Assembly (NCBI GenBank): GCA_027619545.1
Contig: JAQCFT010000014.1
Coordinates: forward strand, 1-33,072
DNA: 33,072 nucleotides
Direction: 5' to 3'
From: Verrucomicrobiota bacterium
GTDB taxonomy: Bacteria; Verrucomicrobiota; Verrucomicrobiia; Limisphaerales; AAA164-E04
This document shows, piece by piece, positions 3,231-28,736 of the stretch. The number at the start of each line of letters is the position of its first letter. The first letter of the stretch is position 1. Below the pieces are notes generated by a model. It saw only the letters and a program-made list of their open reading frames with translations. It had not been told where the DNA came from and ran no database searches. The position numbers and the translations under genes are program-made.

Positions 3231-4613
3231 TCAGGCAAGTATTCTGCGCAAAACATGCCCCCCCACGTTTGTCAGCCGGAAATCACGCCCTGCGTAACGA
3301 TAGGTCAGTTGCTCATGGTCCATCCCCATCAGGTGCAGGATAGTCGCGTGAAAATCATTCACATGCACTCTGTCCTTGACGGCTCGAAACCCAAAATCAT
3401 CCGTCTCTCCGTATGTCACCCCCCCCTTGACGCCGCCCCCCGCCAACCAGGTGGTGAATCCATAGTGATTATGATCGCGTCCTGATCCGTTCTCGGACGT
3501 CGGGGTGCGACCAAATTCACCACCCCAAATCACGAGTGTATCGTCCAGCAATCCCCGTTGCTTCAAATCCGTCAGCAACGCAGTCATGGGTTGGTCGATG
3601 TCGCGACACAAGTCCTTGGCGTGTTTATCGTGATTCTGATGTGTATCCCATGGCTGCCCATCTCCATAGTAAACCTGAACAAACCGAGTGCCACGCTCCA
3701 CCAAACGACGTGCCAGCAAACATCCGTTTGCAAAATGTCCTTTGCCATACTTCTCACGAATGGATTCCGGCTCGCGCTCCAAATTGAACGCCTCACTCGC
3801 TTCCGTCTGCATGCGGAAGGCGGTTTCCATGGATCGAATCCTGGATTCCAAGACAGCATCCCCTCCGCGCTCATTTAAATGCAGTTGATTGAACTGCCGC
3901 ATCAAACCAAGTTGACGTTGCTGTGAGGGGAAATCCATCGATCCGTTGCTCAGAAACGGGATCAACTTTTTGACATCCAGATTCGAATGATTGACATACA
4001 CCCCCTGATGTTCCGAGGGCAGAAAAGCGCTGTTCCACAACACGGAAAACCTGACCGGCCTCCCCGGACAAAGCACCACATATGCGGGCAGATTTTCATT
4101 CTCGGTCCCCAGGCCATAAGATATCCAGGCCCCCATACTGGGCACCGAAGGTGTAATGGTGCCGTTGTTCATCATCAACAATGCGGGACCGTGATTTGGA
4201 TTGTCGCTGTGAAGAGAACGAATCACACACACATCATCCATGCATGCAGCAAACTTCGGCAACATGTCACTGATCGGCACACCACTCTGGCCTGCCTTCA
4301 GCCATTGAACAGGCGATGGAAGCAATCCTGCAGTTGCTCGTTCAGTGCGCAGATTCACTTCAGCCGGTCGTTGTCCCGCATATTTCTGCAGATCAGGTTT
4401 TGGATCGAACAGGTCTGCCTGGAAAGGACCGCCATTCATGAAAAGCTGAATCACCCGCTGGGCTCTCGGTCGATGAGGACGCTGGGCGGCTCGCTCATCA
4501 CTCCCCTTCATCACATTCGCCAGCCCCAGCATCCCCACACCCCCGCCCAGCCGGGCAATCATGGATCGCCGGGTCAGTAAATCATGAAGAACCGGTATAG
4601 AATCAGTCGACAT
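3231..4613 (-). CDS. DUF1501 family protein, probably exported
   Basis: About 460 residues. The family is widespread in Planctomycetes and Verrucomicrobia, is related in fold to sulfatase/alkaline-phosphatase-like proteins, and usually sits beside DUF1549/DUF1553 genes; its biochemical role is not settled. Family marks are FMNGGPFQADLFDPKP near the N-terminus, WGGEFGRTP and GRDHNHYGF in the second half, and the ending GRDFRLTNVGGHVLRRILA. The N-terminus (TRRSMIARLGGGVGMLGLA) resembles a Tat signal. I chose the ATG at 4613 because the longer frame up to 4790 lies inside the upstream gene and the family begins just before the RR motif. That start overlaps the 3' end of the DUF1549/DUF1553 gene by 11 bp, implying translational coupling. 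Confidence 0.92.
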   Translation of the reverse strand: MSTDSIPVLHDLLTRRSMIARLGGGVGMLGLANVMKGSDERAAQRPHRPRAQRVIQLFMNGGPFQADLFDPKPDLQKYAGQRPAEVNLRTERATAGLLPSPVQWLKAGQSGVPISDMLPKFAACMDDVCVIRSLHSDNPNHGPALLMMNNGTITPSVPSMGAWISYGLGTENENLPAYVVLCPGRPVRFSVLWNSAFLPSEHQGVYVNHSNLDVKKLIPFLSNGSMDFPSQQRQLGLMRQFNQLHLNERGGDAVLESRIRSMETAFRMQTEASEAFNLEREPESIREKYGKGHFANGCLLARRLVERGTRFVQVYYGDGQPWDTHQNHDKHAKDLCRDIDQPMTALLTDLKQRGLLDDTLVIWGGEFGRTPTSENGSGRDHNHYGFTTWLAGGGVKGGVTYGETDDFGFRAVKDRVHVNDFHATILHLMGMDHEQLTYRYAGRDFRLTNVGGHVLRRILA

Positions 4614-6612
4614 ACAAAAACGCGTTGCTGGTGATACATGTTTGGGCACAGCGGGCCAGGATCTCCCGGGGATGGGTATTGGAAACTGTCTCGCTTTGAA
4701 AATAAGATTCAAACAACATCTCTTCCTCAGATGTGGGAGAACGCCCCCAGACTTGCCGAAACAATTGAGTGACCCAACCTGATAAATCATACCCGCACCG
4801 AGCCATGATCCGATCGGCCAGTTGAAGCGAACAATCCCAGACGAACGGACCGTTCAAAGCAAACAACTGCTGGACCGGGGTGGTTGTGTTGATGCGTTGT
4901 TCGCTGTATCGATTCGGGTCCGGAAAATCGTGTAGTTTCAACATCACATTCAGATCACGGCGATGAACCGTGCCGTATACCGTGCGGCGAACATTCTCAG
5001 GTCGCGACAAATCCTGCGACGCGCCGCCGAATGATCGATCCAGGCGTTCGCTCACCGACAACATCGCATCACGCCACGATTCAACAGGAAGCCTTTGACG
5101 TGACATGTGCCACAACAACCTGTTCTGAGGATCCACCATCTGGCCTGGAGCATGCACCCGACTGGTCTGTCGCCAGGTGCGGGAGAGCAGAATTTCCCGA
5201 TGCAACCATTTCAATGACCATCCATGCGCCACAAACCGTGCAGCCAGGTCATCCAGCAACTCACGGTGCGTCGGAGCCGCTCCGCTCAGACCAAAATTTC
5301 CGGGAGTGGCAACAATACCCTCGCCGAAGTGTTCTTTCCAGACCCTGTTCACAATCACTCGTGCGGCCAATCCTCCGGCTTGATCGAAAATGGATTCGGC
5401 CCATTCAAGCCTGGCATCGCTATCCTTTCCAAGCGAACCACCGCCAAACACCGTGAAAAAACCTCTGGGAACCGAATCCCCCGGTCGATTGGGATCACCG
5501 CGCACATGACTCTCCAGGTCACGATTGGCATGCTCCAGATAAACCAGCTTGGTGGCATCCGGACCGTCGGGGAGGATTTCCAGGAACGCATCATCAATCG
5601 CGTGTGCCATTGGCAGATCGTAGTTCGGTGTGTTGGCCTTCAAGTCTGCGATTTGCTTCTTAATCTGCTCAGTTTTTTGTTCTGCTTCGGGTGATTCGTC
5701 CTTGCTCAATTGATTGATTTCCTCTTCCCAACGGCGAACCTGTTCCCGGGCATCGGCAATGGGTTTCCATTGTTCATCCGGCACAATCGGGCGGGAGGTC
5801 AGCCGAACGTTGGCAATGATCCCGGCCAAGGCATAATAATCCTGCATGGAAACCGGATCCGACTTATGATCGTGACAACGTGCACAGGACACAGTCAAAC
5901 CCAGCAAGGTACGGCTCATCATATCCACGCGTTCCTCCCACTCATCAGCCACGATGGTTTTGATCACTTCCGGGGCGAGTTTGAGTTCCTTCCAGTAAGT
6001 TGGACTTAGTCCCAGAAATCCCAAGGCTGGTATATCGTCAGGGCCGGTCGAAGGCATCAAATCTGTTGCAAGCTGACGTTTCACGAACTCAGGGTAAGGC
6101 AGGTCGTCATTGAAAGCCTGAATCACCCAATCCCGGTACAACCAGGCGCAACCCATATTCTCAAACCAAACGGCCGTCTGGTCCGCATAGCGCGCTTGAT
6201 CCAGCCACATCCGCGACCACTTTTCCCCGTAGGCAGGCGAAGCCAACAATTGATCCACCAAACGCGACCATGCATCGGGACGATCCTCAGCCAACGCATC
6301 TTCCATTTCCCTGGCATCAGGAGGCAACCCAACCAGATCAAAATACAACCGCCGAATCAAGGTGCGGAGATCCGCTTCTGGAGAAAGTGTCAGCCTTTCT
6401 TTGGACAAGGCACTCTCGATATAGGCATCGATTGAGCAATCCCCAAGACTAGTGTTTCGGAGAGGCAAGGGGCGGAATGCCCAATGATCCGCCCGCTCAT
6501 TTGCCTCAGACGATTCAGCTTTTGTATCCAACCAAGACAGACCACATCCAAACAAGCAAACCACGATCAATGATCGGCACAAAAGGTATTTGGATGAGAT
6601 GTGTGATCGCAT
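4603..6612 (-). CDS. DUF1549 and DUF1553 domain protein (PSCYT2/PSD1 type), exported
   Basis: A 669-residue protein with an N-terminal hydrophobic export signal (about 10-28). DUF1549 spans roughly 60-265 and carries the family heme-like motif CARCHDHK (C243, C246, H247). DUF1553 spans roughly 395-650, including RVIVNRVWKEHFGEGIV and the late RYSEQRINTTTPVQQLFALN. A charged helical linker (about 285-325) lies between them. The extra N-terminal cytochrome module (PSCYT1) found in many relatives is absent, so this is the short form. The partner DUF1501 gene follows with an 11-bp overlap. Such pairs are often found near carbohydrate-degradation genes, but the function is unproven. No good Shine-Dalgarno precedes the ATG; the leader is C-rich. 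An LFGC at 20-23 looks like a lipobox but has Phe at -2, so lipidation is uncertain. Confidence 0.92.
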   Translation of the reverse strand: MRSHISSKYLLCRSLIVVCLFGCGLSWLDTKAESSEANERADHWAFRPLPLRNTSLGDCSIDAYIESALSKERLTLSPEADLRTLIRRLYFDLVGLPPDAREMEDALAEDRPDAWSRLVDQLLASPAYGEKWSRMWLDQARYADQTAVWFENMGCAWLYRDWVIQAFNDDLPYPEFVKRQLATDLMPSTGPDDIPALGFLGLSPTYWKELKLAPEVIKTIVADEWEERVDMMSRTLLGLTVSCARCHDHKSDPVSMQDYYALAGIIANVRLTSRPIVPDEQWKPIADAREQVRRWEEEINQLSKDESPEAEQKTEQIKKQIADLKANTPNYDLPMAHAIDDAFLEILPDGPDATKLVYLEHANRDLESHVRGDPNRPGDSVPRGFFTVFGGGSLGKDSDARLEWAESIFDQAGGLAARVIVNRVWKEHFGEGIVATPGNFGLSGAAPTHRELLDDLAARFVAHGWSLKWLHREILLSRTWRQTSRVHAPGQMVDPQNRLLWHMSRQRLPVESWRDAMLSVSERLDRSFGGASQDLSRPENVRRTVYGTVHRRDLNVMLKLHDFPDPNRYSEQRINTTTPVQQLFALNGPFVWDCSLQLADRIMARCGYDLSGWVTQLFRQVWGRSPTSEEEMLFESYFQSETVSNTHPREILARCAQTCITSNAFLYVD

Positions 6613-6721: not shown

Positions 6722-7435
6722 TTAAAGTTCAGTGGGTTGAATGGAAACGTGCTCCGTGGATCCTTCCACGCGGGCGTCGCCGGACAAGTAGAGGACAACT
6801 TTGCGGTCAGGATCCTCAACGATAACACTACCTTTGATGACTGCCTGATCGCTCAGACGAATTTCAATCGGATCGTCGTTGTTGTTTCGTTTGGCTTTGC
6901 CTTCCAGAACGAGGTTTCCTTCCAGAATGGTGTTGCCTGAAAGATATACATCCCCATTACGGAAGGTCGCATCCCCTTTCACATGGGCTCCTTGGAACTT
7001 CATGGTGCCATTGACGAGGTTCACTTGACCCTCCACCGTGACTCCATCGCCCAACTCAAGTCCACCGTTCACCGTCTTGATGTTTCCGCCTACTGAGCTT
7101 CCTTCCTCAGCGGAAATCCGGCCGTTCACTGTCTCCACATCTTCCTCCACCATGGCGTCCGATTTGATCTTGATGCTGCCATTGACGGTTTTTAAAAGAT
7201 CCGCACGAGCGCCTGCTCCCAGTTCCACACTGCCGTTCACCGTTTTGCAAACGCCTTCGACAATGGATCCGTCCGCGACTTTGATGCTGCCATTGACAGT
7301 TTTGAGGTCATGCTTCACCGTTTCATTGGAGGCCGTCCTGATGGAACTGTTCACGTGAACAGAGCAAGCAGTTACCAGAACAACGGCAGCCAAAGCAACA
7401 GTCCACACACATTTTGAGGTCAGATTAGAAAGCAT
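6722..7435 (-). CDS. Lipoprotein with seven ~19-residue VNG repeats (beta-solenoid-like)
   Basis: A 237-residue protein with a lipoprotein signal peptide (lipobox VTAC, Cys24). It then carries a regular repeat of the form TVNGSI-x-V-x-x-G-x-x-V-x-G-x-V-K. VNG triplets occur at 47, 66, 84, 103, 122 and 141, with a variant RNG at 160, so the period is 18-19 residues. After an Asn/Asp-rich linker (about 182-188) there are two further beta-like stretches. The pattern resembles DUF4097 and bactofilin-type right-handed beta-solenoids, whose turns have similar length, but I cannot assign it to a named family. A lipid-anchored rod at the cell envelope is an inference. The ATG at 7435 is preferred over an in-frame GTG at 7444. 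The gene lies 66 bp downstream of the MFS gene. No enzyme motif is visible. Confidence 0.82.
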   Translation of the reverse strand: MLSNLTSKCVWTVALAAVVLVTACSVHVNSSIRTASNETVKHDLKTVNGSIKVADGSIVEGVCKTVNGSVELGAGARADLLKTVNGSIKIKSDAMVEEDVETVNGRISAEEGSSVGGNIKTVNGGLELGDGVTVEGQVNLVNGTMKFQGAHVKGDATFRNGDVYLSGNTILEGNLVLEGKAKRNNNDDPIEIRLSDQAVIKGSVIVEDPDRKVVLYLSGDARVEGSTEHVSIQPTEL

Positions 7436-7501
7436 ACACAACACTACCCGAAATCGCTTCCTTGAGTTACAGAAAAAAGGAAAGAAATCCAGTAAACAGC
7501 C

Positions 7502-8788
7502 TCAATGCTTTGAAGGTATCTCCTTCAAACGGAACAAAAGAATCCCACCCACGATAAAAAAGAAAACTGTGGAGCTCAGTCCAGCCCGTTGACTGCCAAA
7601 GAGGGTGGTCAGTTGCCCCAGCAAAAGAGGGCCAAGGAAAGAGGTCGCTTTACCGGAAAAGGCGAAGAAGCCAAAGAACTCATTTTCCTTGTCCTTGGGA
7701 ACCAATCGCCCCATGAGTGAGCGACTGGCGGATTGATTCGGACCAGCGAGAAGCCCCATCAGGATGCCCGCTACCCAGAACAGGGTCCGGCTTGGTGCTG
7801 TGACCGCAAGCGTGGTGGCGATGGTCAATCCAATCAGAGAAATCAGGATGGTCTGGCGCGGTCCCAATCGATCATCCACGAATCCAAATATCAAGGCCCC
7901 GACACCAGCAGCCACATTCAAGACGATCCCGAAATACATGATTTCCTGCATGCTGAAATCAAAAATCTGTTCGGCATAAATCCCCCCAAAAGCGAATACC
8001 GTGATCAAGCCATCATTGTATACCAATCGAGCGATCAAAAACTTGAAGATCGTCTGATACTCCGTCCGGATCTCATGAAACGTGGCATTCAGGCGTTTAA
8101 AGGCCGACCTGACAGGGTGAGAGGTAACAGCATGACCGTTTGCTTTCGAGGGAGGAATCCACAGGAACATGGGCAAGGAAAAGAGGGCAAACCAGACTGC
8201 CACCAGAAGATTTACCGCCCGAATATTTTCCCCATTTTCCTGTGAGAACCCGAACCAAGGAACTTCCGGCTGAATCAGGCAAACCAGCGCCACGACCATA
8301 CAAGCCAGCCCTCCAAAATAACCGAAGCCCCATCCATAACCCGAAATCATTCCAATCTTGGAAGGTGGAGCAACTTCGACCAGGTAGGCATTGTAAAACA
8401 CGTAGCCCAATTCGTAACAGACATTGGCGAACACGAAGACGCCCAAAGCAAACCGTATCTCACCTTCAGTGGGAAAGAAAAGTAGGACGGTAGCAAAAAT
8501 GGTCAACCAAGTGGATACGATCAAATACCTCTTACGATGCCCGCCTGCATCTGCCAACGCTCCCAAAACCGGTGAAAGAATTGCAATGATGATCGCCGAA
8601 ACAGTGATCCCCAACGACCACAACTCCATTCCTCGAAGTTTATCTGATACGATACCCGAGGCAAAATAGGTACCGTAAACAAAGGTGACAACGAGGGTTG
8701 TGAATGCTGAATTGGCAAAATCGTACAAGGTCCACCCTAGAATGGCTTTCTTATTGGAATGAACCTGTTGCAACACCGGAGACAGCAT
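7502..8788 (-). CDS. MFS transporter, UMF1 / Atg22-like family
   Basis: A 428-residue polytopic inner-membrane protein, with the about 12 hydrophobic segments expected of the Major Facilitator Superfamily. The opening GWTLYDFANSAFTTLVVTF is the signature of the UMF1 (unknown major facilitator, Atg22-like) family. Further typical blocks are LSPVLGALADAGGHRKRYL after segment 2 and GLLAGPNQSASRSLMGRLVP in the C-terminal half. In yeast Atg22 exports amino acids from the vacuole; bacterial substrates are unknown. The ATG at 8788 begins 47 bp after the stop of the sugar ABC permease gene, close enough for one transcript, which hints at a link to the imported sugar but does not show it. Length is normal for the family. 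Confidence 0.93.
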   Translation of the reverse strand: MLSPVLQQVHSNKKAILGWTLYDFANSAFTTLVVTFVYGTYFASGIVSDKLRGMELWSLGITVSAIIIAILSPVLGALADAGGHRKRYLIVSTWLTIFATVLLFFPTEGEIRFALGVFVFANVCYELGYVFYNAYLVEVAPPSKIGMISGYGWGFGYFGGLACMVVALVCLIQPEVPWFGFSQENGENIRAVNLLVAVWFALFSLPMFLWIPPSKANGHAVTSHPVRSAFKRLNATFHEIRTEYQTIFKFLIARLVYNDGLITVFAFGGIYAEQIFDFSMQEIMYFGIVLNVAAGVGALIFGFVDDRLGPRQTILISLIGLTIATTLAVTAPSRTLFWVAGILMGLLAGPNQSASRSLMGRLVPKDKENEFFGFFAFSGKATSFLGPLLLGQLTTLFGSQRAGLSSTVFFFIVGGILLFRLKEIPSKH

Positions 8789-8835: not shown

Positions 8836-9825
8836 CTAAGATTTACTGACCTTGGCCCTTCTCGCGGCCGCAACACGCTTGACCACCTCGTCAGCCATGA
8901 CTCCGACCAATATAACGGCGCCAATGACCGCGTATTCGATATGCGTGGGGATCCAATCCACCAGGGTAATCATGTTACGCAACACCTGCATCAAGGCCGC
9001 ACCTATCACCACACCAATGATGGTGCCCTGCCCCCCCCGCAAGCTGCAGCCTCCCAGCACAGCGGCCGCAATGGCATACAATTCGTAGAAATTACCAAAA
9101 TCAGCAGGCTGAGCAGAATTGGTATCCAGGATAAACAATACCCCCCCCACCCCTGCCAGGCCGGCACAAATGACATAAGCCAGGATAATCATGAGATCCG
9201 TATTGATCCCACTGTACCGCGCGGCCTGTTCATTGCGTCCCAAGGCAAGCAAATACCGCCCATAAATAGTTCGATTGAGAAAAATGGATGCAACAATGGT
9301 CACGAACAACAAAAGAAAAAATGGAACAGGCAGGCCAAATGTTTCCAAGGGCACTCCTGGAACAGCGATGCGCCCGGTGCCGATCCATCGCAAACCTTCG
9401 AACAACTTGCCAAATCCCTGTGTCTGGTCTCCGGTAAATCCCCGGGTGATTCCTCGATACATCAATAATCCACAGAGAGTCACCACAAAGGGCTGCAATC
9501 TGAGTTTGGTAACGAGCAAGCCATGCAGCAACCCAATCACCACGGAAGCAAGGATCACAATCAAAAGCCCGACAGGCAGAGGCAGGGACATCTTGATCAA
9601 CAACCACGGTAAACCGCACCCTATCAGACATATCACTGATCCAATGGATAAATCAATCCCACTGGTAATGATGACAAAGGCCACTCCTATGCTGATAATC
9701 CCATAAAGGGAAGTCCTCAGAATCAGTCGTTCGATATTGAATGGAGTCGCAAAACTGGGGCTCATCATGGCAGTCAAAACACAGACGACTATGAAAATGC
9801 TGAGAATACCGTAGATCTTTTTCAT
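8836..9825 (-). CDS. Ribose-type sugar ABC transporter permease (RbsC-like)
   Basis: A 329-residue inner-membrane permease of the branched-chain/ribose type (BPD_transp_2). Marks include GIDLSIGSVICLIG near residue 60, LRLQPFVVTLCGLLMYRGI in the middle, and the cytoplasmic coupling region AIAAAVLGGCSLRGGQGTI that contacts the ATPase. About eight to ten hydrophobic segments and the length fit RbsC. It should form the transmembrane channel of the importer with the ATPase gene 22 bp upstream and the binding protein before that. The substrate is probably a monosaccharide, judged only by family. The ATG at 9825 starts a typical MKKIYGILSIFIVV signal-anchor. The downstream neighbour is the UMF1 transporter. 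Confidence 0.93.
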   Translation of the reverse strand: MKKIYGILSIFIVVCVLTAMMSPSFATPFNIERLILRTSLYGIISIGVAFVIITSGIDLSIGSVICLIGCGLPWLLIKMSLPLPVGLLIVILASVVIGLLHGLLVTKLRLQPFVVTLCGLLMYRGITRGFTGDQTQGFGKLFEGLRWIGTGRIAVPGVPLETFGLPVPFFLLLFVTIVASIFLNRTIYGRYLLALGRNEQAARYSGINTDLMIILAYVICAGLAGVGGVLFILDTNSAQPADFGNFYELYAIAAAVLGGCSLRGGQGTIIGVVIGAALMQVLRNMITLVDWIPTHIEYAVIGAVILVGVMADEVVKRVAAARRAKVSKS

Positions 9826-9847
9826 GAAAATACCTGATGCAATCTTT

Positions 9848-11405
9848 CTAATGTGACGGGAGGGTCGCCCCGGTGGCCAGTTGCATGACCGATTCCTCGT
9901 TGAGTTCTTCTCGATTCAATTCTCCGGTCAAGCGACCTTCATGCATGACCAACGCCCGATCGGACATGCCGATAATTTCTTCCATTTCACTGGAAACAAA
10001 CAAAATTGCCACGCCCTGTTCGGCGAGTTTTTCCATGAGTTTGTAGATATCCTGCTTGGCTCCGACGTCGATACCCCGGGTGGGTTCATCCAGGAAAAGG
10101 ACCTTAGGATGCATCGCAAGCCATTTGCCCAGCACAACCTTTTGCTGGTTCCCTCCGGACAGATACTGCACTTCCTGCATTTCGGAGGGAGTCTTGACTT
10201 TCATATCGGCCACCATCTGACGGCTGATCTCCTTTTCTTTGGAACGATTCAAGAAGCCTTTCTTTTGATCACGCTCCAGGCTGGCAAGACTCATGTTTTC
10301 ACGCACGGCCATTTCCAGAATTAATCCCTGTTGTTTCCGATCTTCCGGCACCAACGCCAAGCCATGATGAATGGCTTGCCGAGGGGATTGGATGGATGCT
10401 TGCTCATCACCGATAAAAATGGAACCACTTAATGCCGGTGTAATCCCGAAGACCGTTTGCAACATCTCGGTTCGCCCGGCTCCTACCAATCCAGCAACTC
10501 CCACGATCTCTCCGGCTTTGATTTCGAAATTCAATGCGTGTTTGGGATGTTGAGGTGTGACCAGGTTTTCAACCTTGAGCGCCACTCCGCCTGTATCCCT
10601 TGGTTCAAGAGCGTAATATTGTGAAACATCCCTCCCAACCATCATTTTCACCATCCGATCATGATTAATTTCGTCACGATCAATATCACCAGCGTTCTCA
10701 CCATCACGAAGGACCGTCACCCGGTTGGCCAGTTCCCGCACTTCTCCCAGTCGATGAGAGATATAAACAATGGCCACCCCTTTGGCAGCAAGGTCCTTGA
10801 TAACGACGAAGAGTTGCTCGGTTTCGTGTTGGCTGAGACTGGAGGTTGGCTCATCCATGATCAATACCCGAGCATTGATAGAAAGTGCCTTGGCGATTTC
10901 AACCATCTGCTGATGCCCGATGGTCAACTCACTGACGGTCTGGGCCGGGTTGACATTTAACCCGACTTTTCGAAGATACTCCCTGGAGGCCTCCCTCATG
11001 GCGGAAGTGTTGATCAATCCAAGCTTGAGCGGTTCTCTTCCGAGAAAAATATTGGAGGCAACGTCCAGATTATCCGCCAGATTCAACTCCTGATGAATGA
11101 GGGCAATTCCCTTCTCGAGGGCATCCTCCACTCCTTTGAATCGAATTGGCTGCCCATCCACCAACACCTCACCTGAATCATGCTCCTGCACCGGCGAGGA
11201 TTTTCATCAGGGTGCTCTTGCCGGCACCATTTTCTCCAATGACAGCCAGCACCTCGCCAGCGTGCAAGTGCATACTGACCCCCTTGAGTGCTTTCACTCC
11301 AGGGAAACTTTTGGATACGGTGCGGACCTCCAGCACCTTTGGACTGTTTGAGTCCTTAAGGCTGGAAGGCTTGGAAGATTCCGATGGATCGGAGGATTGG
11401 CTCAC
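9848..11405 (-). pseudogene. Ribose-type sugar ABC ATPase (RbsA-like), split by a frameshift
   Basis: Two adjacent frames together encode a normal-length (about 520 residues) duplicated ABC ATPase. The N-terminal frame starts with GTG at 11405, reaches Walker [10 protein letters not shown] (57-65) and LMKILAG, then meets TGA at 11180-11178. The rest continues in another frame from about 11191 ([13 protein letters not shown]) and has Walker B VLIMDEPTSS, the usual degenerate second Walker A GLVGAGRTE, signature LSGGNQQKV and Walker B VLFLDEPTRG. Relatives normally read LAGV followed by three residues and DSGE. This needs GGTGTGCAG where the sequence has GGTGCAG, so a 2-nt (GT/TG) loss is the simplest cause. 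The start overlaps the binding-protein stop as GTGA. A true mutation, a sequencing error and recoding are all possible; no slippery heptamer is evident. Confidence 0.9.
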
Positions 11406-12448
11406 CCTTCGCTCGATTCAGGTTCCATCGTCTTGGTTTTCAGATCATCCCAGAACTCCTGAACGTTGTCTTTGCGGATGGAGCGCGCAGGAATGTCGAT
11501 GAATTTGGATTCGGGAATGACGGAAGTATCCCCTTTGTAAATGGCGTTCAGCACTTCGATGGATTTATATCCATACATGTATGGGTTCTGCACCACGGTG
11601 CCGTGAATGGTTCCATCGACGATACCTTGCAGAGAAATGTCATCTTCATCAAATGCAACCACCTTAACCTCATTCAGTTTTCCGGCTTGAGCCAAAGCTT
11701 CTACGATGGCGGGAGGGTTGTAAGCGAATAAGCCGACCATACAATTGATGTCAGGATGACGGGTCAGTGTGTCTTCAGCGTTGGCTTTGGCGCGGACAGG
11801 GTCGCCCTGATCCGTCAGGGTGCCCAGAATTTCGTAACCGTTTCCGCTGAGAGAAGCCTCGGGCGGATCAAAGCGCATGGCGTCCTCAGTGCGATCCAGC
11901 AACTCATCGATGACCCCTTGTCGGCGCCGGCGACCATTATCCTGTTCGATACGGCCGACGTAAATCATGACCTTACCACCGTTGGGCAGGGCCTCTTTGA
12001 CCAGCTTACCGCACATGCGACCGGCGATATAGTTGTCCATCCCAATGTAAACTTTCCGATCCGAATCAGGAGCATCCGCATCATGTGTGATCAGAATGGA
12101 TCGACTGGCTACCTGGTTCAGGATGTCGAGCTGATTGGCTGGATCAATCACACTCACGGCAATGCCATTGACGCCACGGGCCAAGTGATCTTCAAGGACA
12201 CGTTTTTGCCCCACAGAACCGCCGGTGGGCATATCCACTTTATAATCCACATTCAGATCGGCAGCAGCTTTCTCAACGCCTTTCTGGGCGATCACCCAAA
12301 AAGAAGCCGGCATATTGGTCACGAAAGCGAAGAGCGGTTTCTTCTCACCTGCCCCATCGCCACCACCGCTTTGATCTGCTGGACCACAACCCGTTATACC
12401 CAAGCACAAAACCGCAAAAACGGCACTCAATACTGCAAATTTTTTCAT
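11402..12448 (-). CDS. Sugar-binding lipoprotein of a ribose-type ABC importer
   Basis: About 348 residues. The start at 12448 gives a classical lipoprotein signal ([13 protein letters not shown], lipobox ITGC, Cys21) and has AGGACGAG as ribosome-binding site; the longer frame to 12544 lacks both. The mature part is a Periplasmic_binding_4 (RbsB-like) domain. It opens with [20 protein letters not shown], followed by [43 protein letters not shown] and, near the end, [27 protein letters not shown]. It should bind a sugar outside the inner membrane and deliver it to the permease. It is first in the transporter operon, with a 4-bp GTGA overlap with the ATPase gene. A palindrome and a possible promoter lie just upstream. 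Confidence 0.93.
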
Positions 12449-12462
12449 GTTCTCGTCCTGAT

Positions 12463-12474
12463 ACTTAATTAAGT
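12463..12474. promoter_or_regulatory. 12-bp perfect palindrome before the binding-protein gene
   Basis: ACTTAATTAAGT lies 15-26 nt upstream of the binding-protein ATG, directly before its AGGACGAG ribosome-binding site. A symmetric AT-rich site here could be an operator, but 12-bp palindromes also arise by chance, and no regulator gene is adjacent. Confidence 0.3.
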
Positions 12475-12542
12475 CGATCCCTAGATGAAAGAGACGCCAA
12501 AGATAAACGATCCAATCCAGACCGAACAGCCCATGGTTCTCC

Positions 12543-12569
12543 ACACTAGGAATGACGCTTTGATGTCAA
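12543..12569 (-). promoter_or_regulatory. Possible sigma-70-like promoter for the sugar importer operon
   Basis: On the minus strand a perfect TTGACA (12569-12564) is followed after 15 nt by TAGTGT (12548-12543). It sits in the 152-bp gap between the SDR gene and the binding-protein gene. The -10 is poor (3 of 6) and the spacer short, so this is tentative. Confidence 0.25.
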
Positions 12570-20924: not shown

Positions 20925-23900
20925 TCAAAATTTCAAATCCGAAACTCCCTGCATGATCCGTTCCCGCAAATCATCGAAAAACGTGTAGAACACCGGAACC
21001 ACAAGAAGTGTCAAAACAGTCGCTGTCGTCATCCCCCCGATCAAGGTCAGTCCAAAACTCTTGTAACTCAATCCCAACTCCGTCGGCTTGCTGAACGTCA
21101 ATGGAATCATACCAATAATGGTGGTCAACGCCGTCATGAGAATGGGACGAAACCGTCGATCGGCAGCGGTCAGCAACGCCTGTGTGCGCTCCAAACCCTC
21201 CTGTCTGAGGCGATTGACATAGTCCACCAGCACGATGCCGTTGTTAACCACCACCCCTATCAACAAAATGGCCCCGACGAAACCCAGCACGTCCAGATCC
21301 TTGCCGGACAACCAATGACTCCACACCACGCCAACACCTGCCAGGGGAATGGTCAGAATGATCGAAAGAGGCAGCACAAAACTTTCGAACAGAAACCCCA
21401 TCAACAGGTAAATGAACAACACGGAAATCATCGCAGCGAATTTCAGATTCTCAATGGTTTCATTGGTGGAAACATCATTCTGGCTCGCGCCAAAATTAAC
21501 ACCTTCAGGCAAATTATATCGCTTGGTCAATTCCATCAACCGTCCCCGCGCAGGCGCGGCTTGACTGGGTTCCAGATCGATTGTCAGGCTGCGATTGATG
21601 CGTTTGTTGCGACGTCGAATGCCATCCGAACTATCCAACATCCGAACATCGGTCACAGCGGAAAGCGGCACGGATCGACCATCGCGGGTGGGCACCTGGA
21701 AATTGGACAGCTCGGTCAGACGTTCCCGATCCGATTCTTCAAAACGGATCCTTACTGGAATTTCACGCCCCTCATAATGAAAACGCGGCAGCACACGCCC
21801 CCGCAAAGCATACCCCACGACACCGGCCACAAACTCGGGATTCACATTGGTCGCTTCCGCTCGGTCTCGATCCACCACCAATGCCAGCTCATTGGCGGCG
21901 CGCTCGCGACCGCTCCGAATCCCCACCACACCGGGAACCGCTTCAATGATGGGCTCAAGATCTTCCGCCACTTGATCCAGCACCGCCGCGTCATCTCCCT
22001 CCATGTGCACCACGAAAACTTCGCGTCCGGTCGCCTCTTCATTCTCACTTTCTCTTCCGGTTCGAAGTTTGACTCCCGGTTTTTTCGGCAAGGCATCCAT
22101 GACAATTTTCGACATTTCTGTTGCGGTCAGTTCATGATCCGAATCAGGCTCCACCCATCCTTCCAGTGAACCGCCGCGATCAAAATGCATCAGGAAAACC
22201 CCACTCAAGCCCAGTTTTTCCTTTTGCTCGAGCATGACTTTTTCCGCAGCATCAAAGTATTCAACCGCATCTTCAAAAATGGCATCCCGCGGCATCTCCA
22301 CACCGATGCGGAACGAAGTCCGATCTTCTTCCTGATTTGGAGCGAATTCAATTTGACGAAAAACGTAGCCGTATGAAACCGCCATCATGATGGCCAAAAC
22401 AATCACCAGATCCATCCTGCGCCGCAGAAAGAAGCTTAAAAACACGTGATATATCTGGTGCCATTTCTCCATGGATTTCTTGTAGGCCAGATCCAGTGTG
22501 CAATCAAAAAAGCGATGAATGGAGACAATCCGGGAAGACGTGGCATGATTTGAACGGGGACGCAGGGTGAGAAAAACACTCAACGGGATGAAGACAACCG
22601 CTACAATCAGAGAAGCCGAAAGAGCCACGGAAATAGGGAGAGCCAGGCGCATCAGAAAGAACTGACCTTCACCTTCCACCAGTGATACAGGAAGAAAAAC
22701 AATGATGGTGGTCAAGGTCGCCATGGTGATGGCGAGGGCAATCTCCGACGCCCCTTTGATACAGGCTTCGCGAGGCGATCGCCCATCCTGCATGTATCGA
22801 TAAATGTTTTCGGCCACCACAACCGAATTGTCTACCAACAACCCCACACAGATCACCAAAGCCAGGATGGAAAGCATGTTCAAGGTTTCACCCGCAAAGT
22901 ACATCACGATCAAGGCCATCAAAAGGCTCAGGGGAATGGACAAGGTCACAATCATGGTCAACCGGAATCGTCTCAGGAAAAAGAACAACACAAGCCCCGC
23001 CAGCGCACCCCCTATTTCACCGCCACCAATCAGACTGAAAATGGAGGACTGCACCATTTTTCCCTGATTGAAAAACAAATTCATTTCAACATCCGCAAAC
23101 AGAGGATTATTCTTCATTTCCTCGACAACCAATTCCAGACGTTCCCCAAGTTCCACGGAATTGGCCTCTCCTTCTTTAAACATGACGAGAGCTGCGGCTC
23201 GCTTGGCATTCAACTTAACACTGAAGTTTTTCTCCGGCTCCTCATACCGAATGACGGCAATGTCCTTCAGTTTCAGTTTATCCGTGATAGGGCGATTCCG
23301 GAAATCCTCCACCGAATGATAGGTCGCCACGGAGCGCAGCAGGAATTTTTTTTCCGCCTCATAAACCAATCCGCCGGCCATGGTGAAATTATCCCGCCCA
23401 AGGTCCTGTGCCAGCTCATAGATATTCAGTCCGAAGGCATCGGCTTTTTGCTTGTCGATTTCGATGATCACCTCCTTTTCAAGCATCCCGTTCATCTGCA
23501 CATTGGCAACGCCATCGATGCGGGAAAGGGGCAAGACAATCTTCTTCTCAACCAAGGTATAAATATCCGCCATCGTAGGATCCACCGCCACACCAAGGAC
23601 GGCCACCGGAATTCCGGACGGATCATGCTTCTGAATAAAATACCGCTCCACATCCTCAGGGAAGCGAGCACGTGCACGTTCCATTCGATCTCGAACTTCC
23701 CGATAGGCCACGGCGATGTCGGTTCTAGATTTGAACCGCATGAAGACATTCGCCCCGTTTTGTCCGGACCACGAATTGATGCTGTCCAGATGCTTGACCG
23801 TGGAAAGTTCTTCTTCCATGGGTTTCGTGATCTTCTCCAAGGTTTCCTCCGCAGGGGCATTGGGAAAAGGCACGTAAACGCTTAAAAATTTGGATTCGAA

Positions 23901-24056
23901 TCCACGGGGAAACAACTCCATCGGCAAACTCACCGCTGCAATGATCCCCACCACAATGATGGTCAACAACAACACCAGCACCGTAACGCGACGATCCAAT
24001 GAAAACCGAGCCAACCGGTACGACAGGGATTCGGATTCATTGGGGGATTCGCTCAT
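20925..24056 (-). CDS. RND efflux permease (AcrB/HAE type), second permease of the operon
   Basis: A 1043-residue inner-membrane resistance-nodulation-division pump, normal in length. It starts SLDRRVTVLVLLLTIIVVG (first membrane helix), followed by a large periplasmic domain including FPNAPAEETLEKITKPMEEEL. Helix 4 has the proton-relay region GLLVDNSVVVAENIYR with one Asp (AcrB has two in a row). A second periplasmic half and the late helix motif GVVVNNGIVLVDYVNRLR follow. It should use the proton gradient to export lipophilic compounds or other substrates with the adaptor encoded two genes upstream. Its ATG overlaps the TGA of the first permease by 4 bp (ATGA), so the two are co-translated. 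The pair differs enough in sequence to suggest a heteromeric pump, as in MdtBC, rather than a recent duplication. No outer-membrane channel gene is in view. Confidence 0.95.
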   Translation of the reverse strand: MSESPNESESLSYRLARFSLDRRVTVLVLLLTIIVVGIIAAVSLPMELFPRGFESKFLSVYVPFPNAPAEETLEKITKPMEEELSTVKHLDSINSWSGQNGANVFMRFKSRTDIAVAYREVRDRMERARARFPEDVERYFIQKHDPSGIPVAVLGVAVDPTMADIYTLVEKKIVLPLSRIDGVANVQMNGMLEKEVIIEIDKQKADAFGLNIYELAQDLGRDNFTMAGGLVYEAEKKFLLRSVATYHSVEDFRNRPITDKLKLKDIAVIRYEEPEKNFSVKLNAKRAAALVMFKEGEANSVELGERLELVVEEMKNNPLFADVEMNLFFNQGKMVQSSIFSLIGGGEIGGALAGLVLFFFLRRFRLTMIVTLSIPLSLLMALIVMYFAGETLNMLSILALVICVGLLVDNSVVVAENIYRYMQDGRSPREACIKGASEIALAITMATLTTIIVFLPVSLVEGEGQFFLMRLALPISVALSASLIVAVVFIPLSVFLTLRPRSNHATSSRIVSIHRFFDCTLDLAYKKSMEKWHQIYHVFLSFFLRRRMDLVIVLAIMMAVSYGYVFRQIEFAPNQEEDRTSFRIGVEMPRDAIFEDAVEYFDAAEKVMLEQKEKLGLSGVFLMHFDRGGSLEGWVEPDSDHELTATEMSKIVMDALPKKPGVKLRTGRESENEEATGREVFVVHMEGDDAAVLDQVAEDLEPIIEAVPGVVGIRSGRERAANELALVVDRDRAEATNVNPEFVAGVVGYALRGRVLPRFHYEGREIPVRIRFEESDRERLTELSNFQVPTRDGRSVPLSAVTDVRMLDSSDGIRRRNKRINRSLTIDLEPSQAAPARGRLMELTKRYNLPEGVNFGASQNDVSTNETIENLKFAAMISVLFIYLLMGFLFESFVLPLSIILTIPLAGVGVVWSHWLSGKDLDVLGFVGAILLIGVVVNNGIVLVDYVNRLRQEGLERTQALLTAADRRFRPILMTALTTIIGMIPLTFSKPTELGLSYKSFGLTLIGGMTTATVLTLLVVPVFYTFFDDLRERIMQGVSDLKF

Positions 24057-27000
24057 GGTTGGATGGAAGGTTGTTCCGGATCTATGGTATCGCTCTCGAC
24101 ATCAGGATGCATCCATCGGTCCAAAAGGAAATAAATGCTCGGCACCACAATCAAGGTCAGGACAGTGGATGAAATCAGTCCGGAGATAACGGCGATGGCC
24201 ATGGGTGTGCGAATTTCCGCCCCGTCGCCCAGTCCGATCGCCATCGGCAGCAACCCCAACACGGTGGTCGCAGTGGTCATCAGGATGGGACGCAACCTGA
24301 CAGAACAAGCGGTCAAAATGGCATCTTTGGGCCCCAAACCACGTGTCCGCAAAAGGTTCGTGTAATCGACCAGAACGATGGCGTTGTTGACCACAATTCC
24401 CACCAGCATGATCAAACCAAGAAAGACCACCACCGACAAACTTGTTCCGGTCACAGCCAATCCGACAGCCGATCCAACAAAAGCCAGAGGCACGGAGAAC
24501 ATGATGATAAACGGTTGCAAAAGTGATTCAAACTGGGAGGCCATGATGACGTAAACCAGGAACACACTCAATCCCATGGCCAGAAAAAGGCTGTTCTGGC
24601 TGTGCTGCCATTCTTCACTTTGCCCTGCGATGAAGTAATTCATATCAATCGGCCAGTCGATGGTTTGATCCAAGGTGGCTTTGATCGTCCCGACTGCCCG
24701 CCCCAGGGATGCATCGCCCAGATTAGCCTGAACCAAGGCCACGCGTTTGCCGTCAATTCGTCGAATTTCGCTGGGACCTTCCCCAATGCTGTAATCGGCT
24801 ACTGCGCTGAGTGGAATTGGCTTGTCGCTTCCCGGGTTCACGGTCAGATTGCCGATGTCATCAATCTTTTGCCGGTCGGCTTCATCCAGCCGGGCAATGA
24901 TCGGAATCCGCCGGTCTTTCATATTAAAACGGGTCGCCTCGTTCCCCTGCACCAGATCCCGTACCAAATCGGCCACCTGACCAATGTTCAACTCGTACCT
25001 GGAAAGCGCGGCACGGTCATAGGTGATCTGAATCTCAGGCGCACCGGGTCGCAGGGTCGTCTCGACATCAGCAAGTTCAACCAACCCCATCAATACTTCT
25101 TCCACCTCGTCGGCCATGTCCTTGAGTTGATCAAGATCGTCACTATGGATTTCAACGCTGATCGGTTTGCGTGTGCTGAACAAAACGGGACGCGTAACGC
25201 GATAAGTCAGATCCGGCACCCGATCGAGTTTGTTCCGCACTTGAGCCAGCACGCGTTCCTCGACCTGGGCTGGACCACCTTGCCCTTCAAGCAACAACTT
25301 AAAGCGGGCGGAATGTTCTCCCTCGTCGCTGCGTTTCATGTTGGTAATATCGTAACCAAAGGTTGTGAGGACGGTTTTAATGTCGCTCTGATCTGCCAGA
25401 AGAAAACTCTCGATATTGGAAAGGGTCTCAACCGTGACTTCCAACGGAGTCCCCACCGGCAGATTGAGTTCAACGGTGACCTCACCCTGATGGACTTCGG
25501 GCAGTAGTTCCGTATCCAATGAAAAACCAATCCAAACCGTCAACGCCACAGCCATGCCAACCAGCCCGAACACACCACTCGGCCTGTCGAGCGCACGTTC
25601 CAGCCAGCGAGGATACCTGTCTGTCAACCAGGTGAGGAGGTTTTGAGTGATCTCAACAGGCCATTTGACCAAAAGGCCGCCCATCTTTGCCGCCAAGGGA
25701 ACCAGCCTTTTCACCACCAAACGGGTCATTCCGGAGAGAGTCATGCCAATGACTTTGCCGACGAACTCCAGAACACATGCAATGACGCATTTCAGGCAAA
25801 CATAGGGAATCAGCAATTTCTTCCAACCTTGACGGACGTCGGAGAGATCAGCGAGCAAGCTTTCGACGGCCATCCATCGTTTCCATGTCAGGCGAGATAT
25901 TTCCCGACGTTGGATATTGGGTCTGGCCCGACTGGCGAGCATGGGGATGAAATATACCGCCACCAATAAGGAAGCGATCAGCGAAATCACCACCGCCATC
26001 CCCAGATCACCAAACACCTGACCAGCGATGCCTTCCACAAACACCATGGGCAGGAATACGGCGATGGAAGTCAATGTACTCGCGGTCACTGCGCCTCGCA
26101 CTTCCCTGGCCCCACGAATGGCGGCCGTTTTCAAATCATCTCCTTCCTGGATGCATCGATAAATGGATTCCAACACCACGATCGACGAATCAACCAACAT
26201 ACCGACCCCCAGCGCCAGTCCACCCAGGGACATGATGTTCAGCGAGACCTCGGACAGATTCAGCGGGGCGAAGGTGATTAAAATACTCATCGGAATACTG
26301 ACCGCAACAATGACCGTGCTCTTGAAATCCCTCAAAAAAAGAAACAGGACGATGACCGCCAAAACCCCACCCACCACGGCAGTCTGCCGCACTTCATTGA
26401 TGCTGTTTTCAATAAACACCGATCGATCGGCAACCACCTCCAATCGAGCGCCTTCGGTCTTGAACAGCTTGGCGGCCAACCGATCCCGGAACATGTTTCG
26501 AATCATCGGATTAAACCGTGCCATCATCTGCATTAAGGGAGGCATTTGAGACGGTCCCACAGTACCCACGGCCGATTTCACCGCCTGGGCCACGGACACG
26601 ATATTGGCATCTGCTTCCTTGTAGATGTCTATCTGAACACTTTCACGCCCATCGGTGCGGGTTACGATTTCACGATCCCTGTGGGAACGGCTGACCGAAC
26701 CAATGTCCCTGATACGCACCTCACCACTGGCATCTCGTCGGATGATGGTGTCTTCGATCTCCTTCTGGTTGGTGAATTCGTTGAGGGTTCGCACCATGAA
26801 TTCCGAACGTCCCTCCTGAACCATGCCGCCAGCCACGTTGATATTCTCCTGCTTCAGACGTGCGACCACCTGTTGAATGGAGACCCCAGTCCTACGCAAT
26901 GCCTGCTGATCCAGCATCACGTGGATTTCTTCTTCCAATCCCCCCCGAATCCTGACCGCAGCCACTCCAGTGATGGGTTCCAGCGCCCGCCGGATTTGAA

Positions 27001-27505
27001 TCTCGGCCAAGCGACGCAGGCGCCGAAGCCCGATTTCCCCTTCAAACCGAATCCCCTCCCCCGAAAGGCTCAATTCCATGATCGGATCCAGCGAGGGATC
27101 GAAATGCAAAATCAAGGGTTTCTCCACTTCCTGCGGCAAAAAGACCTGATCCATTTTTTCCAGCGTGTCCTGCGCCGCCTGCGACATGTCCGTTCCCCAA
27201 ACAAACTCCAACACCACATCACTGATCCCCGCCCGGCTGATGCTGCTGATACGGTTGAGACCGTTGACCACCCCAAGCGTCTCCTCGACCGGACGACTCA
27301 CTTCGTTTTCGACTTCCTCCGGAGCGGCTCCTTCATACTCGGTACGAACAGTGAGCGTGGGGTAATTGAGTTCCGGCATGAGGGTGACCGGAAGTCGTTT
27401 GAAGGAAAAGTAACCAAAGACCACCGCCGCAATAAACACCATCAACACGGCAACCGGACGGTCGGTTGTGAAGTGGGCGAGCTTATGGGAAGAAGGCTGG
27501 GCCAT
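24053..27505 (-). CDS. RND efflux permease with central insertion, first permease of the operon
   Basis: About 1150 residues, roughly 100 longer than a typical AcrB-type permease. The first helix follows TTDRPVAVLMVFIAAVVFG, then come TLMPELNYPTLTVRTEYEGA, VEETLGVVNGLNRISS, helix-4 motif GMLVDSSIVVLES with one Asp (about residue 440), and the late GIVVNNAIVLVDYTNLLR. The extra length lies mainly at about 535-640, between the two halves. There a basic segment (RREISRLTWKRWMAVE) and amphipathic or hydrophobic stretches (LLIPYVCLKCVIACVLEF) replace the usual short cytoplasmic link. I chose the ATG at 27505; an in-frame TTG at 27517 would add four residues. It begins 13 bp after the adaptor stop and overlaps the second permease by 4 bp. 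Function is as a drug or metabolite efflux component; the substrate is unknown. Confidence 0.94.
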   Translation of the reverse strand: MAQPSSHKLAHFTTDRPVAVLMVFIAAVVFGYFSFKRLPVTLMPELNYPTLTVRTEYEGAAPEEVENEVSRPVEETLGVVNGLNRISSISRAGISDVVLEFVWGTDMSQAAQDTLEKMDQVFLPQEVEKPLILHFDPSLDPIMELSLSGEGIRFEGEIGLRRLRRLAEIQIRRALEPITGVAAVRIRGGLEEEIHVMLDQQALRRTGVSIQQVVARLKQENINVAGGMVQEGRSEFMVRTLNEFTNQKEIEDTIIRRDASGEVRIRDIGSVSRSHRDREIVTRTDGRESVQIDIYKEADANIVSVAQAVKSAVGTVGPSQMPPLMQMMARFNPMIRNMFRDRLAAKLFKTEGARLEVVADRSVFIENSINEVRQTAVVGGVLAVIVLFLFLRDFKSTVIVAVSIPMSILITFAPLNLSEVSLNIMSLGGLALGVGMLVDSSIVVLESIYRCIQEGDDLKTAAIRGAREVRGAVTASTLTSIAVFLPMVFVEGIAGQVFGDLGMAVVISLIASLLVAVYFIPMLASRARPNIQRREISRLTWKRWMAVESLLADLSDVRQGWKKLLIPYVCLKCVIACVLEFVGKVIGMTLSGMTRLVVKRLVPLAAKMGGLLVKWPVEITQNLLTWLTDRYPRWLERALDRPSGVFGLVGMAVALTVWIGFSLDTELLPEVHQGEVTVELNLPVGTPLEVTVETLSNIESFLLADQSDIKTVLTTFGYDITNMKRSDEGEHSARFKLLLEGQGGPAQVEERVLAQVRNKLDRVPDLTYRVTRPVLFSTRKPISVEIHSDDLDQLKDMADEVEEVLMGLVELADVETTLRPGAPEIQITYDRAALSRYELNIGQVADLVRDLVQGNEATRFNMKDRRIPIIARLDEADRQKIDDIGNLTVNPGSDKPIPLSAVADYSIGEGPSEIRRIDGKRVALVQANLGDASLGRAVGTIKATLDQTIDWPIDMNYFIAGQSEEWQHSQNSLFLAMGLSVFLVYVIMASQFESLLQPFIIMFSVPLAFVGSAVGLAVTGTSLSVVVFLGLIMLVGIVVNNAIVLVDYTNLLRTRGLGPKDAILTACSVRLRPILMTTATTVLGLLPMAIGLGDGAEIRTPMAIAVISGLISSTVLTLIVVPSIYFLLDRWMHPDVESDTIDPEQPSIQP

Positions 27506-27518
27506 AGGCCGTTTCAAA

Positions 27519-28736
27519 TCATCCGTTATGCGCCTGATCTCCCGCAGGGGTGCTTTCCTCTGAAGGAGCGGATTCGCCGGGTTTCAAGTCCGGACTGGAA
27601 GGGTCCACCACTCTGACTTGACTGCCATCTTTAAGTCCTGTCTGCCCTGCGATGACCACCTGGTCACCTTCCTTGAGCACGGCTACAGGTTCCAGATTGT
27701 CCGCATCCTCCAAGCCCACCTCAAGCAAAACACGTTCAACCTTGTTTTCAGTGCCGATACGAAAGACAAAACGCTGTTCTCCGTCATAAACAATGGCCTT
27801 CTTGGGCAACAACAAGGCATCGGTTTTCGAGGAAGTAATGATATCGGCATCCACATACATCCCCGGCAACAAGGGACCGACATCCCGGAATCCGACGGTC
27901 ACCTTGATCATGCCGGATTTGGATTCCACCACGGGGGCGATGCGCATCACGTAACCTTCAAATGTTTTGCCAGGGAAAGCCGTCGATTCGACGCGCACTT
28001 GTTGATCGAAATGGATACGACTCAATTCCTTTTCCGGAACATACAATCGAGCCACGATGGAATTGAAATCAATGATGTTAAACAGGTCCTGACCTACCTT
28101 GATTTGGTCGCCCACTTTGACCATGCGATGGGTAATGGTCCCGGAAATTGGCGCCCGGATTTCGGTATAACCCAACTCACGCTCCATGTCTTCCAAGTTC
28201 AACTCCAATTGCCGCAATCGAAATTTCGCCTCATCAAAGACCTGATCACTGACCAACTGCTGCTGATAAAGGGATTGCTGGCGAAGAAATTCCTCACGTG
28301 CTTCATCCACTTGGTTCTTGGCCTTGTTCACCTGAATGAGCTGGATGTCATTTTCAAGCTGGAGGAGCAAATCACCGGCATGAACCACATCGCCTTCTTC
28401 CACACGAAGTTCCTTGACCCTGTTCGCGGTTCGGGCAGGCACTTTGACCTCGCTCTCGGCTTCAAGTGCACTGGAAGATTCCAAAACTGTTTCAATAGCG
28501 CCGCGCTCCAACTTCACCACTTCAACAGGAATGGCCGTGTCCTTTTCTTCCTTTGCCCCGGCAACATCCTTGGAACCTTTACCCCACTTCCCACAAGCTG
28601 TCCCGACAAGCGACAGGCACACAATGATCAAACAGCACCCAACTCGATGAATAGAGAAACGCCAACGCGAAATTGCATGGATCGAGGCGTCACGTTTTTG
28701 TGAAACCGGATTGTCTGGATCATTCCCTGGTTGCAT
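27519..28736 (-). CDS. RND efflux periplasmic adaptor (membrane fusion lipoprotein)
   Basis: A 405-residue HlyD/AcrA-like adaptor that should link the permeases to an outer-membrane channel. A hydrophobic segment (32-47) ends in the lipobox VGTAC, placing a lipid on Cys48; the about 30-residue leader before it is long, and a later start cannot be excluded. The lipoyl half-motif VKELRVEEGDVVHAGDLLLQL (about 107-127) precedes a short coiled-coil hairpin (about 130-187), then YTEIRAPISGTITHRMVKVGD, the second lipoyl half. Beta-barrel and membrane-proximal domains follow (VRVESTAFPGKTFEG; LLPKKAIVYDGEQRFVF; VVIAGQTGLKDGSQVRVVD). It heads a three-gene operon with the two permeases. Such pumps are often controlled by a nearby regulator; none is present here. 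Confidence 0.94.
   Translation of the reverse strand: MQPGNDPDNPVSQKRDASIHAISRWRFSIHRVGCCLIIVCLSLVGTACGKWGKGSKDVAGAKEEKDTAIPVEVVKLERGAIETVLESSSALEAESEVKVPARTANRVKELRVEEGDVVHAGDLLLQLENDIQLIQVNKAKNQVDEAREEFLRQQSLYQQQLVSDQVFDEAKFRLRQLELNLEDMERELGYTEIRAPISGTITHRMVKVGDQIKVGQDLFNIIDFNSIVARLYVPEKELSRIHFDQQVRVESTAFPGKTFEGYVMRIAPVVESKSGMIKVTVGFRDVGPLLPGMYVDADIITSSKTDALLLPKKAIVYDGEQRFVFRIGTENKVERVLLEVGLEDADNLEPVAVLKEGDQVVIAGQTGLKDGSQVRVVDPSSPDLKPGESAPSEESTPAGDQAHNG

Follow-up and report, generated by a model that had tools for sequence, protein, structure and literature searches.

The stretch of DNA analysed here (the window) comprises 33,072 nucleotides of contig JAQCFT010000014.1 from a Verrucomicrobiota bacterium (assembly GCA_027619545.1). 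It carries on its reverse strand a gene for a predicted lipoprotein built from repeats with the motif VNG. An earlier note, made from the sequence alone, had placed a lipid-anchored repeat protein at 6950–7303, and this span corresponds to the repeat part of an open reading frame (ORF) at 6722–7435. The features of the gene are listed below, in window positions.

7435–6722, reverse strand: the whole VNG-repeat lipoprotein gene, 237 amino acids plus stop, with its ATG at 7435; homologues cover the full length
7367–7435, reverse strand: predicted signal peptide, residues 1–23, read from the sequence and helical at residues 6–21 in the model
7364–7375, reverse strand: lipobox VTAC (V21-T22-A23-C24), with Cys24 at 7364–7366 as the predicted lipidation site, read from the sequence
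7307–7363, reverse strand: first turn, residues 25–43, without the full motif and directly after Cys24 with no linker
6905–7306, reverse strand: seven turns of the form LxTVNGSIxV, six with VNG and the last with RNG, residues 44–177, from the model and a reading of the motif
6869–6904, reverse strand: polar loop, residues 178–189, which breaks the solenoid and varies in length among homologues
6725–6868, reverse strand: two turns at the C-terminus that lack the motif, residues 190–237, from the alignment and the model

There is an alternative start at an in-frame GTG at 7444.

The VNG or RNG motifs of the window protein start at residues 47, 66, 84, 103, 122, 141 and 159. The earlier count of six VNG and one RNG is confirmed, as is the regular spacing of 19, 18, 19, 19 and 19 residues, but the last spacing is 18 and not 19 as had been reported. 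When the mature sequence was shuffled 100,000 times, six VNG never occurred and the maximum was four. Homologues show the same periodicity: of 312 spacings measured in 57 sequences, 209 are of 18 residues, 86 of 19 and 2 of 17, and the remaining 15, of 38 residues, probably represent a turn whose motif was missed by the search pattern. The consensus from 273 distinct units is [LVI]-E-T-V-N-G-S-I-x-[VLI]-G, with T conserved at 82%, V at 97%, N at 98%, G at 100% and I at 86%. Since the conserved residues are the T, V, N, G and I of the unit, the conservation of the repeat is that of the fold (its turn and core) and is therefore structural. The strongly conserved Asn lies at the turn between two short strands, a position that fits the Asn ladder proposed in the earlier note. 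In the alignment of members, the window protein and L058 have one unit more than most others and L063 and L068 one unit fewer; gain and loss of whole repeats between homologues is as expected for a solenoid.

Structure prediction, one of the checks proposed in the earlier note, gave a confident β-solenoid. Using an alignment of 32 homologues, AlphaFold2 produced a model with a mean predicted local distance difference test score (pLDDT) of 92.3 and a predicted template modelling score (pTM) of 0.85, with pLDDT ranging from 90.8 to 92.3 over the five models. The single sequence, without homologues, gave a pLDDT of 80.9 and a pTM of 0.77. The model and the 18- or 19-residue spacing in homologues both support one solenoid turn per repeat, as had been proposed. 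Within each turn the model has an LxTV strand, the NG turn, an SIxV strand, a loop and then one more short strand; with three such strands to a turn, a three-sided β-helix is suggested. The modelled solenoid starts directly after the signal peptide and ends near the C-terminus, with no helical cap.

The helix is predicted to be right-handed, because it superposes at low root-mean-square deviation (rmsd) on right-handed helices and at only about 11 Å on the left-handed GlmU. The comparison was made with VIA-align on the second model, that with aligned homologues, on which pertactin, a right-handed helix, superposed at 2.3 Å over 207 residues (Z 18.4). Foldseek itself found no match to either model at E up to 0.001. 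No toastrack entry appeared among the best 50 superpositions listed for each model, which does not exclude that fold. A β-helix rises by approximately 0.48 nm per turn, and the ten turns modelled for the window protein would make a solenoid about 5 nm long. The solenoid turns of the “envelope rod” described previously are thus borne out by prediction, but “rod” is too strong a word for one copy of ten turns.

The export signal and lipobox described earlier are also found in the window protein, as a signal peptide and VTAC at Cys24. In the alignment, a Cys stands directly before the first turn in the window protein, P0002, P0003 and L014. P0002 and P0003 have Ser at position −3, making a weaker lipobox, and the strict lipobox pattern is matched by the window protein and L014 only. 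The Cys anchor occurs in members from Verrucomicrobia and KSB1. Judged by eye, the signal peptides of L016 and of the gammaproteobacterial members appear to finish at a conventional site for signal peptidase I. Going by these sequences, export appears to be general among the members read, and the lipid anchor does not.

The window protein is not an orphan, but a member of a widespread and unnamed family that is common in relatives of Xanthomonas. A search of 58 genomes listed matches in five, of which three were counted as carrying the family. The matches set aside were L006 in G024 and a second match in G010 (L008), both of which resemble classical DUF4097 proteins, and L005 in G056, which lies inside a large membrane protein. 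When genome contigs were scanned using an alignment of three sequences, 57 loci were returned; 56 were read as family and one (L069) was excluded as DUF4097. Most of the family loci are in Xanthomonas, Lysobacter and Stenotrophomonas; others are in Woeseiaceae, Steroidobacteraceae, KSB1, Thermoanaerobaculia and two Verrucomicrobia. Sampling of 200 genomes from the order to which a Xanthomonas member belongs gave matches at E up to 1e-15 in 146, although some of the weakest of these could be DUF4097. The family is found in 6 of 247 genomes from the phylum of L016, in 3 of 196 from the order of the window (the window's own, G010 and G045), and in 1 of 387 in a sample of its phylum, namely the window's own genome. 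This patchy occurrence near the window may reflect transfer. In a tree of 25 rows, a split at 99/97 sets the five rows from outside the Gammaproteobacteria apart from the other twenty, with many long branches and a warning from the program of false joins. No viral or plasmid relatives were found; in PHROGs, 2 of the 32 aligned members match phrog_3163 (4.6e-6).

The earlier note knew of no described family with this exact architecture. It was right that no named family applies, the window protein being below every Pfam and NCBIfam cut-off, but the architecture is common to a large family rather than unique. Our literature searches turned up no published description of a VNG-repeat protein, of an exported bactofilin or of a periplasmic VNG β-helix in Xanthomonas. 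PapS, a shape-giving lipoprotein, was considered and rejected: it has an OmpA-like domain, and no solenoid is described in the available part of the paper (PMC11369160). A sequence search of the PDB returned only an antifreeze protein (E 0.38) for the single protein, and the profile had no hit with an E of 1 or less.

To place the family, profiles were compared using hhalign for two sets: six proteins with at least three VNG, and eleven others having mostly SGG in place of VNG. Against DUF4097, which is the Toastrack domain, the VNG-type set gave 98.0% (1.9e-13) and the mostly-SGG set 88.5% (2.7e-6), while the reversed controls gave 0.5% and 0.3%, respectively; a separate run gave 96%. Against bactofilin the sets gave 6% and the separate run 10%. 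On this basis we place the VNG family, as far as sequence can indicate, beside the Toastrack β-helix, as a variant missing the N-terminal part and not as a new kind. The two share repeated T-x-[NG]-G-x-[IV] strands and a right-handed β-helix; the VNG family differs from Toastrack of the LiaG type in lacking the N-terminal region, in having an export signal and in its very regular repeat of 18–19 residues. The best DUF4097 match covers template positions 129–233 of 280, and the mature protein begins at the first solenoid turn; the N-terminal seven-stranded region, a Toastrack feature according to the part of the source consulted (PMC11237479), would be absent from the window protein. The likeness to DUF4097 suggested by the earlier note therefore holds at the profile level, but not by score: the window protein has 9.4 bits against Pfam DUF4097 (PF13349), where the cut-off is 22.9, and the G010 homologue, at 20.7 bits, is also below it. 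A match to DUF4097 is likewise absent from the window's genome at E up to 0.001.

In the window, the VNG gene lies between a gene for a transporter of the major facilitator superfamily (MFS/ATG22-like) upstream (7502–8788, reverse strand) and a DUF1553/DUF1501 pair downstream (3231–6612, reverse strand). Around the gene neither a promoter nor a convincing terminator was apparent, and the GC content is even along the window, at 0.47–0.54. Farther upstream, at 8836–12544, there is a complete sugar-type ATP-binding cassette importer (periplasmic binding protein, ATPase and permease) beside a short-chain dehydrogenase-like ORF. In G045 the VNG gene is found 263 bases after a resistance-nodulation-division (RND) pump pair and faces a DUF1501/DUF1553 pair. 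The DUF1553/DUF1501 pair is next downstream in both the window and G045 (L015, 6788–11111), in opposite orientations, with 41.6% identity in DUF1501. The window also has an RND pair (20925–28736), 53% identical to that before the VNG gene in G045 (L015, 2–6657); it is 13.5 kb from the VNG gene, and the linkage could be due to chance. In the KSB1 genome (L014, 2999–5387), two similar papain-like C1 peptidase genes follow the VNG gene in tandem, the first being PF03051.

The 52 gammaproteobacterial loci have a different set of genes nearby, encoding an EnvC-like M23 protein (49 loci), an M28 peptidase (45), an S41 protease (44) and GpmI (21). Their genomes are mostly close relatives, and the sharing of neighbours is largely one of shared descent. 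Of 34 further regions from the order of the Xanthomonas member, one stopped short of the VNG gene; among the other 33, GpmI plus EnvC occurs in only 8, and M28 alone in one. In Xanthomonas-type genomes the VNG gene is divergent from envC or gpmI, and in seven other genomes of this order it is divergent from a gene of the histidine-phosphatase superfamily. By eye, the latter resembles gpmA, a phosphoglycerate mutase unrelated to gpmI, which is independent of bisphosphoglycerate; gpmI and a gpmA-like gene have possibly been swapped in place beside the VNG gene (L112, L122 and the like). None of the EnvC, S41, M28 and GpmI neighbours was seen in the loci from other phyla. Because this set is confined to gammaproteobacterial loci that are mostly kin, we draw no function from the context.

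Our preferred reading, in which we have moderate confidence, is that the VNG protein is an exported, short right-handed β-solenoid of about ten Toastrack (DUF4097)-like turns, without the N-terminal region, that serves as a passive scaffold in the envelope. The fold, the export signal and the family are well supported by prediction, and from these we infer the role of scaffold. The lipid on Cys24, with no linker, would hold the first turn at the membrane. In each repeat the NG turn would join two short strands, with the core filled by side chains of V, I and V/L, judging by the pattern of the strands. The flat, strand-lined faces, about 5 nm long, could then bind partner proteins or the wall, and the scaffold would lie on one face of a membrane, either the periplasmic or the outer.

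Several observations weigh against this reading. Only 10 of the 32 members touch DUF4097 with E values of 1 or below (1.1e-4 for the best), and the profile match spans approximately 100 columns, where the repeat motif accounts for it; two β-helices may have converged on an NG turn instead of being homologous. The neighbouring genes vary by lineage, with none seen to be kept across phyla. In addition, Toastrack is argued to be intracellular in the part of PMC11237479 available to us, whereas the VNG family carries export signals.

The VNG protein could instead be an exported counterpart of bactofilin, whose subunits stack end to end into periplasmic filaments or sheets as a skeleton of the envelope, although we regard this as doubtful. 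Both would be right-handed three-sided β-helices, and the nuclear magnetic resonance structure of BacA aligns with the first model over all 103 residues (rmsd 2.4, Z 12.4); the extent of the solenoid, from the signal peptide nearly to the C-terminus with no helical cap, would also suit stacking. However, BacA is absent among the best 50 superpositions listed for the second, better model, the profiles show no kinship, at the 6% and 10% given above, and a lipid on the first turn would impede stacking at that end. At E up to 0.001 nothing in the window's genome matches the bactofilin family PF04519, and the window protein itself has no match to it at E up to 10; 3 of the 32 members touch it with E values of 1 or below (1e-4 for the best). 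Moreover, bactofilin is cytoplasmic and its domain has about 110 residues, whereas the VNG protein has ten turns and, by sequence, a signal peptide and lipobox. Of the bactofilin likeness put forward in the earlier note, the shape stands but the kinship does not.

A role as a sensor or brake in envelope stress, in which the β-helix silences a signalling partner until the envelope is damaged, as in the C-terminal part of LiaX, seems to us distinctly unlikely. The LiaX model (NCBIfam NF038025) is matched weakly by each of the 32 aligned members (best 8.4e-12), reflecting a stretch of similar repeats in LiaX, and the portion of PMC11601895 consulted reports an inhibitory C-terminal domain for LiaX. 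The match is nevertheless far under the model cut-off (44.6 bits for the window protein, against 350) and rests on the repeat, the best stretch being only 60 of 512 model positions (367–426). No two-component system, PspC or LiaF-like gene was seen beside the window gene among its ORFs and Pfam hits.

A polysaccharide-binding or -cleaving β-helix like the pectate lyases, or an ice-binding protein, is very unlikely, despite many superpositions on lyases and an antifreeze β-helix and touches by Pfam Ice_binding (0.19 for the window protein; an E of 1 or below in 4 of the 32 members, the lowest being 0.0011), given the lack of any Foldseek match at E up to 0.001, the restriction of the conserved residues to turn and core, and the fact that no regular Thr face of the ice-binding type was noticed. 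A hexapeptide β-helix was also rejected as the source: only 6 of the 32 members touch the Pfam hexapeptide family with an E no higher than 1, hhalign gave 34% for E. coli LpxD and 8% for LpxA, and GlmU superposes poorly. Membership by score in DUF4097, bactofilin, LiaX or Ice_binding was likewise rejected, the window protein being below the cut-offs or without a match.

The earlier observation is real and sound, and the family is an uncharacterised, ordinary-looking family of envelope solenoids. It is a compact, single-domain and highly regular β-solenoid that is common in one bacterial order, yet its member in the window escapes all Pfam and NCBIfam cut-offs. A bolder proposal, which we consider unlikely, is that exported Toastrack-derived solenoids stack by their ends or flat faces into filaments, forming a periplasmic skeleton of their own in most of the Xanthomonas order; if true, the family would do in the periplasm the work that bactofilins do on the inner side of the cytoplasmic membrane. 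More generally, the VNG family bears on whether Toastrack-type repeats serve outside the cytoplasmic membrane too.
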